From contig JABXKU010000018.1 of the NCBI GenBank assembly GCA_013619105.1, positions 1-38,548 of the forward strand: a stretch of DNA of 38,548 bases, written 5' to 3'. The notes beneath the pieces were generated by a model. That model saw nothing but the letters and a program-made list of their open reading frames with translations. It was not told where the DNA came from and searched no databases. Positions within the stretch are counted from its first letter, which is position 1. Every line of letters starts with the position of its first letter. The position numbers and the translations under genes are program-made. Shown in pieces: positions 26,770 to 37,761 of this stretch. This DNA comes from Desulfuromonadales bacterium. GTDB lineage: Bacteria; Desulfobacterota; Desulfuromonadia; Desulfuromonadales; Syntrophotaleaceae.

Positions 26770-27423
26770 CTAGCTGGCCTTGCGCTCCATCGCCACCCGA
26801 TAGTTTACCAGATCTGCAACAGTCATCACCGGCAGGTAGCGCCGCTTAGCAAAATCGACAATCTCCGGCAGACGCGCCATGGTCCCGTCAGGGTTGGTCA
26901 CTTCACAGAGTACGCCACAGGGCTTGAGGCCTGCCAGGCGCATCAGGTCGACGGTCGCTTCGGTATGACCTTCCCGCTCCAGCACCCCGCCGGAGCGTGC
27001 CCGCAACGGAAAGACGTGGCCGGGCCGGCAGAGATCGGAAGGCTTGGCGCCGTCGGCGATAGCCGCCTTGATGGTGGTCACCCGGTCGGCTGCGGAAACG
27101 CCGGTAGTCACCCCTTCAGCCGCTTCGATGGTGACGGTGAAAGCGGTCTGGTAGGCACTGGAATTATCCTCAACCATCATCGGCAATTCGAGTTCACGAA
27201 CCTTCTCGTCGGGCAGACAGAGACAGACGATGCCACTGCACTCGCGAATCAATAGGGCCATCTGCGCATCGGTCAGGGTCTCGGCGGCATAGATCAGATC
27301 CCCTTCATTTTCGCGATCTTCGTTGTCGACAACCAACACACCACGGCCAGCACGCAGGGCTTCCAAGGCGCGCTCTACCCGCTGATGCGAATCACCGAAC
27401 TCATTTAACAAGGATTGACTCAT
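26770..27423 (-). CDS. ribB: 3,4-dihydroxy-2-butanone 4-phosphate synthase
   Basis: RibB converts ribulose 5-phosphate to 3,4-dihydroxy-2-butanone 4-phosphate plus formate in riboflavin biosynthesis. The 217-residue protein is the same length as the E. coli monofunctional enzyme. Motifs are [18 protein letters not shown] (residues 31-48, Mg and acid/base residues), [48 protein letters not shown] and [12 protein letters not shown]. No GTP cyclohydrolase domain is fused. AAGGG lies 8 nt before the ATG. An FMN riboswitch lies in its leader, so expression falls when FMN is plentiful. Confidence 0.97.
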
Positions 27424-27519
27424 GGGAATACCCTTCTTCCGTATAGGGAAAAATCAGAATCAGGGCGTGACAGGCAAAAAGCAGGGGCCGGAAAATATAT
27501 GGCGGGTTGCTGGCTGCCT

Positions 27520-27668
27520 CATCCTCTATCGTCCGGACTATAACCGTCGGCTCTGGAATCACACCAGATCTGCTGACCTCCTTTAACGAGAAAAGGAGCG
27601 CTCGCGGGCTCCCCAGAGCAACCTGGGATACCGCCGGTGGGGACTCGCACCCCGCCCTGAGAATAAGC
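27520..27668 (-). ncRNA. FMN riboswitch (RFN element)
   Basis: On the minus strand the conserved RFN elements occur in order: TCTCAGGGCGGGGTGC, GAGTCCCCACCGGCGGTA, AGCCCGCGAGCG, GGTCAGCAGATCTGGTGTGA, CCGACGGTTATAGTCCGGA, then the GATAGAGGATGA closing strand. The exact ends are approximate. The aptamer lies about 100 nt upstream of ribB and controls it through its unresolved expression platform. Confidence 0.96.
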
Positions 27669-30727: not shown

Positions 30728-30785
30728 ACTTCAGTTACCGAGACGCTGTTGCACCTACTTCAGTTACCGAGACGCTGTTGCACCT
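30728..30785. repeat. Tandem 29-bp duplication at the dctP stop
   Basis: Two identical 29-bp units (30728-30756 and 30757-30785) abut. The second covers the last dctP codons and the stop; the first repeats the same tail downstream. It is a simple tandem duplication that does not change the protein. Confidence 0.9.
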
Positions 30786-31857
30786 TCTGCAGATACTCAA
30801 CGCCAATCTTTTCGCCCCAGGCCTGGTAGACCGGAGCACTGGCTTCGATCAGAGTCTGTCGGTCGGCCTCGGACAGATCAATAAACTCCACTCCATTGGC
30901 CTCAGCGGCAACGATCTGCTCTTCTTGCTGCTGACGAGTACGGGCTCGACTGGCTGCACTCTCCTCGGCAATGACCTCCGTTAGCACCTGTTGCAAGTCG
31001 GCGGGCAAACGCTCAAACCAGGCTTTGTTCATCAAATGAATGAACAGCCCCTGAGCGTAATCGATACGGGTCAGGTAACGGGCCACTTCAAATTTGCGGG
31101 TCAGGTTGCAGACAATGGGCGTATGGTCAAGGCCGTCGATCACCCCGGTCTGCAGAGCTTGCGGAACATCACCCCAGGGCATAACGGTAAACTTCAAGCC
31201 CCAGGCCTTATAAATATCGGCGTTGACCGGTGCCTGAGCGATACGGAAGTTGACCTTGCGGGCATCCTCCAGGTTGCGCACTGGCGTCTTAGTGGCCCAG
31301 CCGTAAGAACCATAACCGGTCACATCGACGACTTTCAGCCCCCGGCCTAGAGCACTATTACTAAACTCGCCGAACAGTTCCGGATCGTTACGAAAGATAT
31401 CGAGTTTGTCGAAACTATCGATCACGAAAGGCAGGTTAACGATACCCAGAGTGTCGGCCACATTGGCCGCAGCCACCGATGAGCAGAGCATACCCTGAAC
31501 CGCGCCGAGCTTGAGCTTGCTGAGCACAGCCTTTTCCTGGCCGAGCTGAGCAAGGGGCCGAAAATCGACAAAAATTCGACCACCAGAACGCTCCCAAACC
31601 TTGTCACGAAGACGGTACCCAAAAGACACCCCTTCAATCGCCGGATGGGAAACGTTGGACAGCAAGTAGGTATATTCGGCGCCACTCGGATCGAACTGGG
31701 GTTGCCAGGCCGCCAAAGGGTCCTGCTTAGCCGCCTTTTCTGCCGCAGCTGGCTTAGTAGGTTCCGCTGCGGTCTCTTCACTTTTTTTCTCACCGGGACA
31801 TCCAACCAGAGACGCAACCAATAACAACCCGCCCAACAGCATGCTCAGTCGTTTCAT
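30760..31857 (-). CDS. dctP: TRAP substrate-binding lipoprotein DctP (copy 1)
   Basis: DctP captures the substrate in the periplasm and delivers it to DctQM. The 365-residue protein is a lipoprotein (ASLVGC, Cys20), whereas most DctP proteins are soluble. Family stretches include YTYLLSNVSHPAIEGVSFGYRLRDKVWERSGGRIFVDF, GQEKAVLSKLKLGAVQGML, NLPFVIDSFDKLDIFR, VNFRIAQAPVNADIYKAWGLKFTVMPWGDVPQALQTGVIDGLDHTP and FIHLMNKAWFERLP. By eye it is about two thirds identical to copy 2 over the mature region. The ATG follows a GGGGGGGAG site. Confidence 0.94.
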   Translation of the reverse strand: MKRLSMLLGGLLLVASLVGCPGEKKSEETAAEPTKPAAAEKAAKQDPLAAWQPQFDPSGAEYTYLLSNVSHPAIEGVSFGYRLRDKVWERSGGRIFVDFRPLAQLGQEKAVLSKLKLGAVQGMLCSSVAAANVADTLGIVNLPFVIDSFDKLDIFRNDPELFGEFSNSALGRGLKVVDVTGYGSYGWATKTPVRNLEDARKVNFRIAQAPVNADIYKAWGLKFTVMPWGDVPQALQTGVIDGLDHTPIVCNLTRKFEVARYLTRIDYAQGLFIHLMNKAWFERLPADLQQVLTEVIAEESAASRARTRQQQEEQIVAAEANGVEFIDLSEADRQTLIEASAPVYQAWGEKIGVEYLQKVQQRLGN

Positions 31858-32036: not shown

Positions 32037-33137
32037 CTACTGGTCTGCCAGAGTACTTCTAACCCGCTTCAAGTACTCCGGCCCGACCCTTTCAGCCCAA
32101 CTATCGTAAACCGGCTGCGAAAGCTCGATGAGTTTCTGCCGGTCAACCGGGGCAAGCTCTAAAACCTGCACGCCGCGACCTTGTGCGGCCACGAGTTCCC
32201 GCTCCTGCTGATCCCGAGTCAGAGCCCGCGCCTTGGCACTCTCTTCTTCGATGGTCCGCAACAAGATATCCTGAAGGTCGGTGGGCAGGCCATCAAGCCA
32301 GCGCTTGTTGAGCAGATGGATATAGAGCCCCTGGGCATAGTCGATACGGGTGAAATTTTTTGCATAATTGAATTTTTTGGTGATGCTGCAAACGATGGGA
32401 GTATGATCGAGGCCTGTTACCACGCCGGTTTGCAAAGCCTGAGGCACATCGGGCCAGGGCATGACTGTAAACTTCAATCCCCAAGCCTTGTAGGTGTCGA
32501 TATTGACGGGTGCCTGTGCTACTCGAAAATTGACTCGGCGAGCCTCTTCCAAAGTCCGTACCGGCTCCTTAGTCGCCCAGCCATAGGTGCCGTAACCGGT
32601 GAAATCCACGGCCAGGATGCCCCGAGCAACAGCGGCCTGACGGAAATCATCGAAAAGCTCAGGGGTGCTTCGAAATGTTTCGAGCTTGTCGAAGCTTCCA
32701 ACCACAAATGGCAGATTCACCACGCCTAGCTTGTCGGCTACGTTAACAGCCGCCACCGAAGAACAGAGCATGCCCTGAACGGCACCGAGCTTAAGCTTTT
32801 TGATAACATCCTTTTCACCCCCAAGCTGACCCATGGGGCGAAAGTCGACATACAGACGGCCGCCAGAGCGCTGCCAGACCTTGTCACGGATATGGTAACC
32901 AACAGCGATTCCCTCGATGGCCGGATGATCGACATTGGACAATATATAAGTATATTCAGCCGACTTCGGGTCAAAAGCAGGCTGCCAGGCCACCAAAGGG
33001 TCGTTCACCACCTCTTTTGCAACAGCCTGCGATTCCTGCTGAGCAGAAGGGGCCGTTTCTTGTTTGCAGCCTGCAAGACTGCACAACACCAGCAGCATTC
33101 CGAGCCCACCAATCAAAATCTGTCGAAAGGATTTCAT
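32037..33137 (-). CDS. dctP: TRAP substrate-binding lipoprotein DctP (copy 2)
   Basis: The 366-residue paralogue has a lipobox (CSLAGC, Cys24) and the same family segments: YTYILSNVDHPAIEGIAVGYHIRDKVW, GQLGGEKDVIKKLKLGAVQGML, VNFRVAQAPVNIDTYKAWGLKF and DVPQALQTGVVTGLDHTP. The ATG at 33137 is used because GGAGG lies 5 nt upstream; an ATG at 33149 would add four residues. It precedes copy 1 by 180 bp, so two receptors share one DctQM pair. They probably widen the substrate range or differ in affinity; this is inference. Confidence 0.93.
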   Translation of the reverse strand: MKSFRQILIGGLGMLLVLCSLAGCKQETAPSAQQESQAVAKEVVNDPLVAWQPAFDPKSAEYTYILSNVDHPAIEGIAVGYHIRDKVWQRSGGRLYVDFRPMGQLGGEKDVIKKLKLGAVQGMLCSSVAAVNVADKLGVVNLPFVVGSFDKLETFRSTPELFDDFRQAAVARGILAVDFTGYGTYGWATKEPVRTLEEARRVNFRVAQAPVNIDTYKAWGLKFTVMPWPDVPQALQTGVVTGLDHTPIVCSITKKFNYAKNFTRIDYAQGLYIHLLNKRWLDGLPTDLQDILLRTIEEESAKARALTRDQQERELVAAQGRGVQVLELAPVDRQKLIELSQPVYDSWAERVGPEYLKRVRSTLADQ

Positions 33138-33317
33138 TCCCACCTCCATTGCTTTAATACGAACAAGCTACCACGTCATTGCAGAACAGCGCTTGGAAGC
33201 ATAAGCCAGCTACCATTATTCAGTAAAGAACATTTCATCCTACTTCCCTCTTGCCATTCAGCCAGCTCTCAATGGCGGTGCCCATCGTGCCGCTTTCTTC
33301 CCTTTTGAGGCTATGCT

Positions 33318-34499: not shown

Positions 34500-35243
34500 A
34501 TGGAACACCATCGTTTTGAACGCCTTGAACTGCTCGTCGGCAACGACGGCCTGCAGCGCCTCAGAAATGCCTCCGTCGCTGTGGTCGGAGTGGGTGGGGT
34601 CGGCAGCTACGCCGCTGAAGCCCTGGCCCGGGCCGGCATAGGCCGCATAACCCTGATCGACTTCGACCGCATTGCCCTCAGCAACATCAACCGGCAGATT
34701 CACGCTCTTGAGCAAACCGTCGGCCGAACCAAGGTGCAAACCATGGCCGAACGCTGCCTGTCTATCAACCCTGAAGCGGAAGTTCGGCCCATAGAGGCCT
34801 TTTACAGCGCTGACACCTCGACGGAACTACTGGCCGGCGGCTACGACTACCTGTGCGACTGCATCGACAGTATCACCTCTAAACTGCACCTGATCGAAAG
34901 CTGCATGAATAGCTCCATTCCTGTCATTTCAGCCATGGGCGCGGCCAACAAGCTCGATCCGAGCCTAATTCGGGTCGGCGACCTAGCCCGCACCCAGACC
35001 TGCCGCATGGCTCGCATCATGCGCAAAGAGTTGGGCCGGCGAGGCATCCGCCGCGGGGTCAAGGTGGTCTATTCCCTGGAAGAATTCCGCGCCCTCAGAG
35101 CAGAGACTCCACCAGAGGAGGACCCGGCATCGGACCATCGGCCACGGGTCACCCTCGGCAGCTCATCCTACATTCCACCTATCTTCGGTCTGACCATGGC
35201 CGGTGAAGTGATTCGCGAACTGCTAGAAGGGTGCCAGACTTGA
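34500..35243 (+). CDS. tcdA: tRNA threonylcarbamoyladenosine dehydratase (TcdA)
   Basis: TcdA (formerly CsdL/YgdL) uses ATP to cyclise t6A37 of ANN-decoding tRNAs to ct6A. The 247-residue product is an E1-like enzyme: HRFERLELLVGNDGLQRLRNASVAVVGVGGVGSYAAEALARAG (nucleotide loop GVGGVGS), LIDFDRIALSNINRQIHA, YDYLCDCIDSITSK, KLDPSLIRVGDLARTQTCRMARIMRKELGRRGI and the C-terminal GSSSYIPPIFGLTMAGEVI. The ATG at 34500 has GGAG 9 nt upstream; a TTG at 34485 would overlap that site. A terminator follows. Confidence 0.94.
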   Translation: MEHHRFERLELLVGNDGLQRLRNASVAVVGVGGVGSYAAEALARAGIGRITLIDFDRIALSNINRQIHALEQTVGRTKVQTMAERCLSINPEAEVRPIEAFYSADTSTELLAGGYDYLCDCIDSITSKLHLIESCMNSSIPVISAMGAANKLDPSLIRVGDLARTQTCRMARIMRKELGRRGIRRGVKVVYSLEEFRALRAETPPEEDPASDHRPRVTLGSSSYIPPIFGLTMAGEVIRELLEGCQT

Positions 35244-35262
35244 CAGCCACCTTTACCTGGCA

Positions 35263-35285
35263 GGCCGGCCCTTGGGCCGGCTTTC
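35263..35285 (+). terminator. Terminator after tcdA
   Basis: The perfect stem GCCGGCCC / GGGCCGGC with a 2-nt loop is followed by TTTCTC, about 20 nt after the stop. The loop is very short, so the effective stem may be one or two pairs less. Confidence 0.7.
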
Positions 35286-35289
35286 TCAA

Positions 35290-35850
35290 CATGTTGGCCT
35301 TCGCCATCAAGCGGCTGACCGGCAGACGTTTTTCTGCTCGCCTCAAAGTCTGACAAAAAAAAACAAACCACCTTCTAAAACTTCCCCCCAGCCCTATGCA
35401 TTCCAAACATCTCTGGTATACTCGTCAACAATTTGTACCATACATTAACTCGGCTGAAAATTGGCCACAGCTATTATAAAACGACATTTGATATTTTTAC
35501 TCTTGGCACAGTGGCTGTCTCCCCGTAATCCTTTTAAGGGCTTTTGAGGTTAGGCAAGCGCAGCCAAAAAAACTTAGGGGAAACCAACCCGGACCAGGCT
35601 ATACAACCGAGGTCAGAGAACACAGTCAATAATTCTAGTCCCTTCCAACAACTACCGGGATGATACGATTGGCACCATACCGCACCTTAAGCATATCCAC
35701 ACAACCCTAACCGATGTTCTATTTTGGAACAATATGTCGCCACATGTACCCCTTTGCACCAGCGGGAACTTTCTTGAAAGGATGTTTGCCTCTTTTTTTC
35801 AAGAAAAAACCACTAGAGTTTCAACTAGATATCACCAAAGTTCACGTTCT
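35290..35850. other. Gene-free interval upstream of the sigma-54 promoter
   Basis: The 560 bp hold no credible gene. A weak hairpin (TTTCTTGAA / TTCAAGAAA) lies around 35771-35809. The stretch may contain enhancer sites for a sigma-54 activator, but no clear tandem palindrome was found. Confidence 0.45.
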
Positions 35851-35857
35851 TGACACA

Positions 35858-35872
35858 TGGCACTGAAATTGC
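35858..35872 (+). promoter_or_regulatory. Sigma-54 promoter (-24/-12) of the porin gene
   Basis: TGGCACTGAAATTGC carries the invariant GG (35859-35860) and GC (35871-35872) exactly 10 nt apart, as sigma-54 promoters require. The expected transcription start is near 35884, which gives the porin mRNA a leader of about 350 nt. Activation would need an enhancer-binding protein. Confidence 0.72.
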
Positions 35873-35899
35873 CCTTGTTAAAACGACTGTTTATTTCTA

Positions 35900-36235
35900 A
35901 AATGCAAAGCAAACCTTTCCCAGAAAGGAGGTGCAACTGGCAGCAAGGTAAGTCCCGTTTAAACGATCAACCGGTTTCCGTGTTACACCCCAACCGGGAA
36001 CTCGCGACTTTTGGTATGGCTGACCACAGCTGAAATACCGTACCCGGGAAAAAGATGCTCTTCGAGCCCTTTTTCTGGTAAGCCAGCAAACAGCTTCCCA
36101 CCCATGAGTCGGCAAAAAAGGTAAAAGATGGAGGTTTTTGGACCGGACTCCGCAAGGAGTTCTGCAGGCGACCCATCCCACCGCCTGCACATTCGACAAA
36201 CCAAGCATACCTATGTAATCAGGAGGCACCACAAG
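35900..36235 (+). ncRNA. Structured 5' leader of the porin mRNA, class unknown
   Basis: Within the leader I see a stem at about 36014-36040 (GGTAT...ATACC with inner GCTG/CAGC), ACTCC-GCAA-GGAGT with a GNRA loop near 36149-36162, GCAGGCG / CGCCTGC around 36164-36188, and CCTTTC-CCA-GAAAGG near 35915-35929. The clustered hairpins suggest a regulatory leader. No known riboswitch consensus could be matched. Boundaries are approximate. Confidence 0.4.
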
Positions 36236-37441
36236 ATGAGATTTACTAAGATTTCTGTACTGGCCCTTTTGGCGGCCATGATGTTCTTCGCATCCACCGC
36301 TTCGGCGGCTATCGTAATCGGCGGCGCTGACGGCTGGTCTTTCAGCACCGACGGCATGGTTAACCTGTTCGCCACTTATCAAAATTCCGACGATGCTCCT
36401 ACCGGCATTCAAACCGCCTATGTTACCGAGGAAGACGGCTTCCGCCTCAAAAACGGATTTCTGCCGAACATCCTGGCCTTCAACATCAAGGCCCCGACCA
36501 TGAACGGTTTGGACCTGGCCGCCCGCATTGGCTTCTACCCTTCATCCGCCCACGCTAACGTCAAGGACAAAACCGACAGCCAACTCGACATGCGTGAAGT
36601 CTTCTTCACCGTCGACGGTAACTTCGGCCAACTAATGATCGGTAAAGGCCTGAGCCTGTTCCTGGGCCAGAACCTGCTTACCGAGCAGACCCTGATGGGC
36701 GCCGGCAACCTCGGCACCGCCACCGGCCTCAGCGACGCTGTCGGTGTCACCCTCGGCCGCATCGGCTACGGCTACCTCTACCCAGAGTTCAATGCCCAGG
36801 TCCGTTACACTACCCCCGACATGGGTGGCTTCAAAGTGGCTCTCGGAATCTATGACCCTGCCGTAATTGGCACCTTTGACGAAACCAAATTGCCCCGCGT
36901 AGAAGGCGAAGTGTCTTACGCCGGCACCTTCAACGGCGGTACTTTCAAGGCTTACTCCAACGGCATGTGGCAAGAGATTGGTACCGTTTCCTCCTCAGCT
37001 GACGTCACTGCTTATGGTATCAGCGCTGGCGCAGTAGTCGGCCTGGCCGGTTTCGAACTGTCCGGCTCCATCTTTTCAGGCGAAGCCCTCGGCACCACAT
37101 TACAATTCGGCGCAGATGGCCTTGATTCGGCTGGCAATGAGCGTGACACCATGGGCTATATTGCCCAGCTCACCTACACCATGGCCAACGAAGGCAAGAC
37201 CAAGTTCGGCGTGAGCTACGGCGCCAACGAAATGGACGAAACCAGCACCGACAAAGCAGAACGCCTCGCCGGTGGTGACGCCTTCATCGAGACCTTGGCC
37301 CAGCTGACCTTCATGGTCACCCAGGACATCACCCCCAACCTGAAGATTGTCGGCGAAGTTAGCTTCCTCGATCACGAGTGGCACAACGGCGAAGACTGGC
37401 AAGCTCAGCAGGTCAGCCTTGGCACCTTCTTCCTCTGGTAA
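36236..37441 (+). CDS. Outer-membrane porin-like beta-barrel protein
   Basis: The 401-residue precursor has a signal peptide cleaved after ASTASA (residue 24). The rest is composed of alternating hydrophobic beta strands and ends in FFLW, an aromatic C-terminal residue typical of BAM-targeted barrels. GMVNLFATYQ, GLDLAARIGFYPSS, FGQLMIGKGLSLF, GRIGYGYLYPEF, VEGEVSYAG and FMVTQDITPNLKIVGEVSFLDHEW match the Porin_4-type style of general porins. The ATG at 36236 follows AGGAGG by about 9 nt. Expression probably depends on sigma-54 and the leader. Solute specificity is unknown. Confidence 0.86.
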   Translation: MRFTKISVLALLAAMMFFASTASAAIVIGGADGWSFSTDGMVNLFATYQNSDDAPTGIQTAYVTEEDGFRLKNGFLPNILAFNIKAPTMNGLDLAARIGFYPSSAHANVKDKTDSQLDMREVFFTVDGNFGQLMIGKGLSLFLGQNLLTEQTLMGAGNLGTATGLSDAVGVTLGRIGYGYLYPEFNAQVRYTTPDMGGFKVALGIYDPAVIGTFDETKLPRVEGEVSYAGTFNGGTFKAYSNGMWQEIGTVSSSADVTAYGISAGAVVGLAGFELSGSIFSGEALGTTLQFGADGLDSAGNERDTMGYIAQLTYTMANEGKTKFGVSYGANEMDETSTDKAERLAGGDAFIETLAQLTFMVTQDITPNLKIVGEVSFLDHEWHNGEDWQAQQVSLGTFFLW

Positions 37442-37565: not shown

Positions 37566-37736
37566 ATGCGCAAATTGGTTGCACTGACAACATTGCTTCT
37601 GGCGCTGGCAGCATTCGGTTGCACGCCAGCCAAGAAAATGCCTAGCGACAAGACCCTGATTAAATGCACAACCTGCGGTGTAGAATTCACCGTAGAAGAA
37701 GGCATGAGCGCTTATGAGTCAGCCCACGGCCACTAA
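37566..37736 (+). CDS. 56-residue lipoprotein with CxxC motif
   Basis: The short gene has a clear AAAGGAAAA ribosome site 5 nt before the ATG. It encodes a signal peptide with lipobox (LAAFGC, Cys19), then a compact mature part of about 38 residues with CTTCG (Cys34 and Cys37), VEFTVEEGMSAYESAHGH and a terminal HGH. The two Cys and two terminal His could bind zinc, heme or iron, or form a small redox site; I do not recognise a family. It follows the porin gene by 124 nt and may be co-transcribed. A strong terminator follows 26 nt after its stop. Confidence 0.8.
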   Translation: MRKLVALTTLLLALAAFGCTPAKKMPSDKTLIKCTTCGVEFTVEEGMSAYESAHGH

Positions 37737-37761
37737 CAGGGCTGCCTGACAGGTGTTTACC

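Follow-up and report, generated by a model that had tools for sequence, protein, structure and literature searches.

Long structured leaders on the transcripts of outer-membrane proteins are known, the 5' UTR of E. coli ompA, of about 130 nt, being an example, and control of porins by small RNAs is known as well. GEMM (c-di-GMP) riboswitches are cis-regulatory RNAs that occur in Geobacter relatives. According to the accessible text of one report, the Burkholderia cenocepacia porin BCAL3473 has a promoter that resembles sigma-54 sites and is subject to post-transcriptional control with the small RNA NcS25 (PMC10117139), while the accessible text of another describes the porin-like OmpJ of Geobacter sulfurreducens, which has homologues in G. 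metallireducens and Pelobacter carbinolicus (PMC1186022). The word promoter is absent from the main text of PMC1186022, the words porin, ompJ, GSU3304, untranslated and outer membrane are all absent from that of PMC2725144, which treats the RpoN regulon, and porin is absent from that of PMC12316311. A literature search of titles and abstract openings, of incomplete coverage, returned no description of a comparable leader.

The porin locus described here lies in a window of 38,548 nucleotides (the whole stretch of DNA analysed), which is contig C130 of a 3.32-Mb genome in 205 contigs (G000), and was compared with a family set of 14 genomes and an order set of 136 genomes, 122 of them outside the family. 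We think there is about an even chance that this porin belongs to a small regulon of sigma-54 channel genes whose transcripts carry lineage-specific structured leaders that act post-transcriptionally, a reading that is drawn from sequence comparison and rests on 11 porin leaders. The features first needed are these:

36236 to 37441, + strand: gene of the porin (401 aa), which Pfam assigns to no family and whose predicted fold matches porins.
35858 to 35872, + strand: predicted sigma-54 (-24/-12) promoter TGGCACTGAAATTGC, recognised by sequence and by its conservation.
35879 to 35895, + strand: start-site motif of 17 nt, TAAAACGACTGTTTATT, which extends across the predicted +1 (35884) and has 2 copies in the window genome.
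35884 to 36235, + strand: predicted 5' leader of the porin mRNA, 352 nt, from the -12 element (start), conservation and structure.
35924 to 35933, + strand: AAAGGAGGTG, resembling a Shine-Dalgarno sequence and retained, with changes, by most leaders; no start codon is conserved 3' of it.
36221 to 36226, + strand: porin Shine-Dalgarno AGGAGG, read as CAGGAGG in 12 of 12 aligned upstream regions.

A Pfam scan, which left out the ORF at 37567-37737, yielded no family for the 401-aa product, and the predicted structure of this product (12 aligned homologues, mean pLDDT 62.6) best matches DcaP of Acinetobacter (6eus, E 1.8e-14); the name porin is thus sound by predicted fold, not by sequence family. 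Named relatives of the porin come from Desulfuromonadales MAGs, Pelobacter MAGs and Desulfuromonas sp. CSMB_57. The 11 orthologous leaders comprise group A (G000, G001, G003 and G004, which are of the same genus, plus G009), G005, and group B (G006, G008, G010, G011 and G012). Among the other family genomes, the porin search found no match in G002, and G007 and G013 have only more distant porins (48-51% identity) that do not carry the sigma-54 promoter of the window porin. The window genome holds a second porin copy (L047, G000:C86:3-1085), 76% identical over its visible part, which is cut by the contig start, so that its leader is not visible. Elsewhere in the window, two adjacent, similar genes on the - strand (30760-31857 and 32037-33149) presumably encode TRAP-type substrate-binding lipoproteins, and we take the adjoining genes to be DctQ- and DctM-like.

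The GG-N10-GC pattern that an earlier note on this DNA had pointed out is present exactly as described, with GG at 35859-35860 and GC at 35871-35872, in the context TGGCAC-N5-TTGC. The consensus TGGCAYNNNNNNTGC matches once in the 38.5-kb window against 1.05 matches expected from shuffles, which is chance level, and the case for a promoter therefore rests on the relatives. There the site is kept 334-378 nt 5' of the start codon in 10 of the 11 orthologous porin leaders, a conservation that supports the sigma-54 promoter proposed in that note. The 11th leader, that of G009, has lost both core dinucleotides and retains the start-site motif and the leader; the loss, at G009:C205 (L107), reflects either a true loss or an assembly error. 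The first porin copy of a tandem pair in G005 has no such promoter. Counting from the -12 element, transcription would be predicted to start at 35884, 12 nt 3' of its C.

It is conceivable, if very improbable indeed, that the region is a DNA-level regulatory sequence or encodes a separate small RNA, with the porin transcribed mainly from elsewhere. One weak sigma-70-like site that overlaps the sigma-54 site fits such a scenario, but no sigma-70-like site was found near 36200, nor any promoter-like site on the + strand from 35904 to 36235. The start-site motif also speaks for this alternative. Since the motif is a dyad and the predicted start falls inside it, its left arm would be untranscribed, which suits a DNA element better than an RNA hairpin, and the motif is probably a DNA operator or an extended core promoter. 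In the window genome its two copies are common only to the porin and to a gene for an AmiS/UreI-like small membrane protein on contig C124. Across the 14 family genomes, TRRAACNNNNGTTTATT has 26 matches as opposed to 2 for the reversed control, and 22 of these lie at a fixed spacing 3' of a sigma-54-like element (9 at porin genes, 13 at AmiS-like genes), including the AmiS locus of G003 (L160), whose -12 element reads CC, not GC; the remaining four comprise one in the porin leader of G009 and three at other places. The -12 element and the motif are separated by 6 nt in all porin leaders, and at AmiS-like genes by 7 nt in 12 cases and 6 nt in one. At order-level relatives (L062-L066, L068-L071, L077 and L078), an AAC-N3/4-GTT-like dyad was seen by eye just 5' of the -24 element of porin or AmiS promoters, whereas in the family the dyad sits at the start site instead.

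The second motif-bearing gene is named with some reserve. Six-frame searches place PF02293 above cut-off in 4 of the 14 family genomes, and direct scans matched 2 of 5 members in one case and 0 of 2 in another, a patchiness that makes the AmiS/UreI-like label tentative. With a model built from five AmiS-like proteins, the gene is found in 14 of 14 family genomes and in 18 of the 122 others of the order, of which all but one (17 of 18) have the porin as well. The AmiS alignment left out L115. Upstream sequence was sufficient in 13 family genomes, and there the motif precedes the AmiS-like gene in all 13 and an intact promoter in 12, at 383-525 nt 5' of the start codon. Outside the family the two genes are often neighbours behind a sigma-54 site, with an SCO4226-like gene at many of these loci. 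By sequence, then, the porin and the AmiS/UreI-like channel appear to form one small sigma-54 regulon. The two genes stand some 24-29 kb apart in G003, G006, G008, G010 and G012, the five genomes in which both are on one contig. At one locus of this kind outside the family (L166, G106:C1:2486000-2500000), a histidine kinase, an NtrC-type sigma-54 activator and an iron-containing alcohol dehydrogenase are encoded alongside, divergently from the SCO4226-like, AmiS-like and porin genes; this offers a starting point for finding both activator and solute, drawn from the single genome examined for an activator beside the pair (G106). The idea that the leader is a relic of an SCO4226-like gene was rejected, as tblastn found no trace of one in the family leaders and gave a single family row (L141, E 5.0), outside the leader.

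The length of about 350 nt given for the leader in the earlier note accords with the 352 nt predicted here. Between the window and G003 the leader is 0.80 identical, as against 0.52 for the 300 nt 5' of the promoter and 0.75 for the coding sequence, and within group B the corresponding figures are 0.64 for the leader and 0.42 upstream; for comparison, five paralogue upstream regions average 0.40 and shuffled sequence 0.28. This jump in identity from upstream DNA to leader indicates that constraint rises at the promoter. The pentamer ACCGG occurs in 11 of 11 porin leaders, and together with the layout it is all that groups A and B, which are barely alignable, have in common. Group A in addition holds near-invariant blocks that are partly unpaired, namely CCGTACCCGGGAAA and AGATGGAGGTTT.TGGACCGG. 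The helices modelled on group A are as follows:

35973 to 36002, + strand: hairpin H1, arms 35973-35980 and 35995-36002, CACCCC in the loop; all cells paired, one-sided changes only.
36005 to 36111, + strand: long interrupted arm made up of P1 to P4.
36005 to 36014 with 36102 to 36111, + strand: P1, with compensatory change or changes.
36019 to 36022 with 36091 to 36094, + strand: P2, with compensatory change or changes.
36036 to 36039 with 36077 to 36080, + strand: P3, no compensatory change.
36047 to 36054 with 36069 to 36076, + strand: P4, with compensatory change or changes.
36142 to 36162, + strand: ACCGG and hairpin H4, arms 36145-36151 and 36156-36162, GCAA tetraloop; ACCGG and the H4 hairpin each in 11 of 11 leaders.
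36163 to 36189, + strand: hairpin H5, arms 36163-36170 and 36182-36189; two compensatory pairs in group A.

Where the earlier note had counted at least three or four hairpins, the model thus has seven helices, five of them with a compensatory pair. The GNRA loop it had noticed is the GCAA at 36152-36155, which is GAAA in two relatives and AUAA in G009, so that four of the five group A leaders have a GNRA sequence at the H4 loop. The arms of H5 are complementary by eye in all 11 leaders, and the helix is predicted in 10 of them. Overall, 96.2% of 266 cells are paired in the group A model, a value reached by 0 of 500 shuffles, and pairing falls to 36-56% when partners are slid along. Compensatory base changes, on which the earlier note had made its reading depend, are present: 6 of 54 pairs are changed on both sides, in five helices, a count again reached by 0 of 500 shuffles, while for further pair types the count does not exceed that of shuffles (419 of 500). 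Such pair-preserving changes within the leader speak against a purely DNA-level element or a separate RNA.

Since this structure was drawn from the same sequences, a second test was made with a re-optimised structure. By RNAalifold energy, the porin leaders of group A (z -3.7) and group B (z -3.1) are each better than all column shuffles (0 of 100 as good), as are two sets of AmiS leaders (z -4.3 and -4.8, 0 of 60 each), and six coding controls range from z -1.8 to +0.7; as the gene of G004 is cut, the controls for group A cover its other four genomes. The count of double changes under re-optimisation is not above column shuffles in porin group A (21 of 100), porin group B (23 of 100) or the AmiS sets (24 and 32 of 60); it exceeds them in one four-genome set only (15 versus 6.3, 0 of 60), and one coding control comes near significance (4 of 60). 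The first half of the group A leader, taken alone, is not significant (13 of 100), and DNA 5' of the promoter also beats shuffles (z -2.4, 0 of 60). Folded in reverse, group A gives z -1.8 (3 of 60) and group B z -3.9 (0 of 60), as good as forward, and the latter favours the DNA-level alternative; the g1/g4 AmiS leader fold, by contrast, is strand-specific (z -4.3 forward, +0.14 reverse), which argues against it. In group B and G005 the order of arm, H4, H5 and ribosome site recurs with other sequences. Folding energy by itself was rejected as evidence: single-sequence z is -2.4 for the window leader, spans -2.6 to +1.2 over the 11 leaders and -2.5 to +1.4 over ten paralogue upstream regions, so that the two overlap and the measure is not specific. 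The evidence for structure is therefore comparative. Masking of the ribosome site as a shared default was likewise rejected, since accessibility follows no common tendency: compared with most shuffles, the site is more open in G000, G001, G003 and G004, where 28-40 of 40 shuffles do not exceed it, and likewise in G009 (34 of 40); it is more closed in the leaders of G008, G010 and G011 (2-4 of 40) and intermediate in G005, G006 and G012 (15-30 of 40). The leader is conserved, structured and unclassified, of a general kind already known, and on these comparisons it looks like a real regulatory leader that awaits classification.

One way in which such a leader could act is as a metabolite-binding riboswitch that senses a small molecule, for example the solute carried, and switches translation or termination. 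The near-invariant, partly unpaired blocks of group A with the GNRA loop in four of its five leaders would suit this, as would the long leaders on two linked channel genes. At the gathering score, however, Rfam scans of the whole window, of L004, L005, L007 and L062-L078, and of 18 porin loci gave nothing credible in the leaders, and 11 of 11 porin leaders and 12 AmiS loci are without a match. That the method works is indicated by an FMN riboswitch (RF00050, 108.9 bits) which the same scan recovered at 27517-27668 on the - strand; the ORF downstream of it (26770-27423) is, we assume, RibB-like. With the threshold relaxed to E up to 10 for 35240-36300, nothing credible emerged, the best of the four matches listed having E 0.81. 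The absence of an Rfam family takes GEMM out of consideration; the earlier note had itself failed to match GEMM, as does the scan, and the GCAAACC segment near 35910 in which it saw a resemblance is not part of a GEMM element by Rfam. A covariance model of group A (R1), built from its five leaders of g1 and g4, was run against the 136 genomes of the order: strong matches (E below 1e-60) are confined to the five genomes that supplied the leaders, and 17 further genomes have weak ones (best E 0.004) in a search whose stricter filters lose weak matches. Given this range and the poor alignability of groups A and B, no conserved aptamer core was found across diverse species or gene contexts, and the + strand of the leader holds no terminator-like site. 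A classic riboswitch, which we judge highly unlikely, would not be expected to diverge so rapidly or to be missing from the rest of the order. Of the unclassified cis-regulatory RNA suggested earlier, the promoter, the long leader, the conserved structure and the lack of an Rfam family therefore stand, whereas the riboswitch-like suggestion is weakened by the confinement of R1 to its source genomes.

Another possibility is that part of the leader is translated. The leader had been described as free of ORFs, which holds for long ones, but two short frames begin within it. The first, from ATG 36128, is in frame with the porin in the four same-genus leaders, not in G009, and would add 36 codons; the second and a pairing that might affect it are these:

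36138 to 36218, + strand: possible short upstream ORF, TTG start, 26 codons, GGAGG 3 nt 5' of the start; start position the same in 5 of 5 group A leaders.
36127 to 36177, + strand: possible pseudoknot of GATGG 36127-36131 with CCATC 36173-36177 in the H5 loop; pairs in 5 of 5.

A short upstream ORF would start at TTG 36138 behind GATGGAGG (position -98, ATG in G009), span H4-H5 and end at the porin start codon or shortly 5' of it, so that porin translation would be coupled to the state of the leader. The ribosome-binding site of this frame includes GATGG, and the pseudoknot would cover the Shine-Dalgarno sequence and hide the start; the pairs are almost invariant in group A and hence give the pseudoknot no covariation support. 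It is the common position of start codon and GGAGG in all five group A leaders that makes this frame count as a rival, together with its end, which lies 17 nt 5' of the porin ATG in G000, G001 and G003 (26 codons) and overlaps the porin start (ATGA) in G004 and G009 (33 codons). Its peptide is not conserved, however, with 2-7 amino-acid-changing versus 1-4 silent codons between same-genus pairs and, in G009, divergence from the third residue after the start, so that a role, if there is one, would depend on translation as such. Spacing of 3 nt from GGAGG to the start is short and TTG is a weak start codon, group B has no start codon at the corresponding place, and an open frame of 26 codons is not rare by chance. 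We regard a translated frame as distinctly unlikely; it may nevertheless offer an alternative reason for part of the conservation of the leader.

Returning to a structured leader that acts post-transcriptionally, we infer its start site, its role, its partner and the solute concerned from what can be read in the sequences, namely the promoter, the motif, the conservation and structure of the leader and the pairing of two genes. RNA polymerase with sigma-54 and an NtrC-type activator would start transcription near 35884, giving a porin mRNA whose 352-nt leader carries H1, the interrupted arm P1-P4 and the tandem H4-H5 just 5' of the ribosome-binding site. This leader would serve as a cis-acting platform that determines how stable the porin mRNA is and how well it is translated. 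In doing so it would most probably depend on a trans-acting partner (an RNA-binding protein, for instance CsrA, or a small RNA) and not on a bound metabolite. The AmiS/UreI-like channel, whose gene shares the start-site motif and likewise has a long structured leader, would be co-ordinated with the porin for the entry of a small solute.

As to the partner, a trans-encoded small RNA could pair with the leader, as for other porins, and BCAL3473, with sigma-54-like promoter elements and small-RNA control, is in the accessible text of its report a precedent (PMC10117139). The leader given there is 87 nt, however, and the length of 352 nt thus stays unexplained by this alternative. No candidate small RNA was found. 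Pairing between the two leaders themselves was considered and rejected: in G000, G001 and G009, CCGTACCCGG of the porin leader is exactly complementary to CCGGGTACGG of the AmiS leader, but 9-12 of 60 shuffles do equally well, and in G003 another pairing scores best (11 of 60). Nine of the 10 genomes do not rise above shuffles in this respect, with only G005 standing out (1 of 60). We hold a small-RNA target to be rather unlikely.

CsrA could instead bind GGA in leader hairpins and near the ribosome-binding site and repress or stabilise the mRNA, which we consider unlikely. The genome encodes csrA, and in the accessible transcriptome table of a csrA mutant the G. sulfurreducens porin gene ompJ, likened to the window porin by description only, has negative values (-1.68 and -1.52; PMC11934962). 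GGA occurs 7-11 times per porin leader versus 5.0-7.8 expected, but this enrichment is small, is measured against mononucleotide shuffles only and is absent in several AmiS leaders. ANGGA occurs 2-5 times per porin leader and 0-4 times per AmiS leader, and two of the window GGA sit in the H4 stem.

A more ambitious scenario is that the large leader RNAs of both transcripts belong to a new class that evolves fast, and that they respond to a single shared signal or trans-acting factor; entry of the same solute through the outer and inner membrane would then be adjusted together post-transcriptionally, in group A possibly via a pseudoknot that hides the short-ORF start; we see this as a long shot. 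What was an impression from raw sequence has in any case become a testable object: a conserved leader whose helices are defined, a partner gene, and a start-site motif that seems to mark a sigma-54 regulon of two genes. If the proposed leader function is true, post-transcriptional control would be added to the outer-membrane channels of the Desulfuromonadales.

Set beside the described systems, the locus differs from GEMM riboswitches in that the window has no GEMM match at the gathering score, and the four matches listed for 35240-36300 with E up to 10 include none either. It is like ompA in having a folded leader before what would be an abundant outer-membrane protein, for which a role in mRNA stability and small-RNA control is plausible by analogy, and unlike ompA, with its leader of ~130 nt, in that the window leader is ~352 nt long and apparently sigma-54 driven and that a second channel gene is built alike. 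With OmpJ the window porin has in common that it is a porin-like protein of related bacteria, a likeness by description only and from the accessible text (PMC1186022). Whereas the BCAL3473 leader, as far as the accessible text of its report goes, is 87 nt long and mostly unconserved (PMC10117139), that of the window porin extends over ~352 nt and is conserved and structured.
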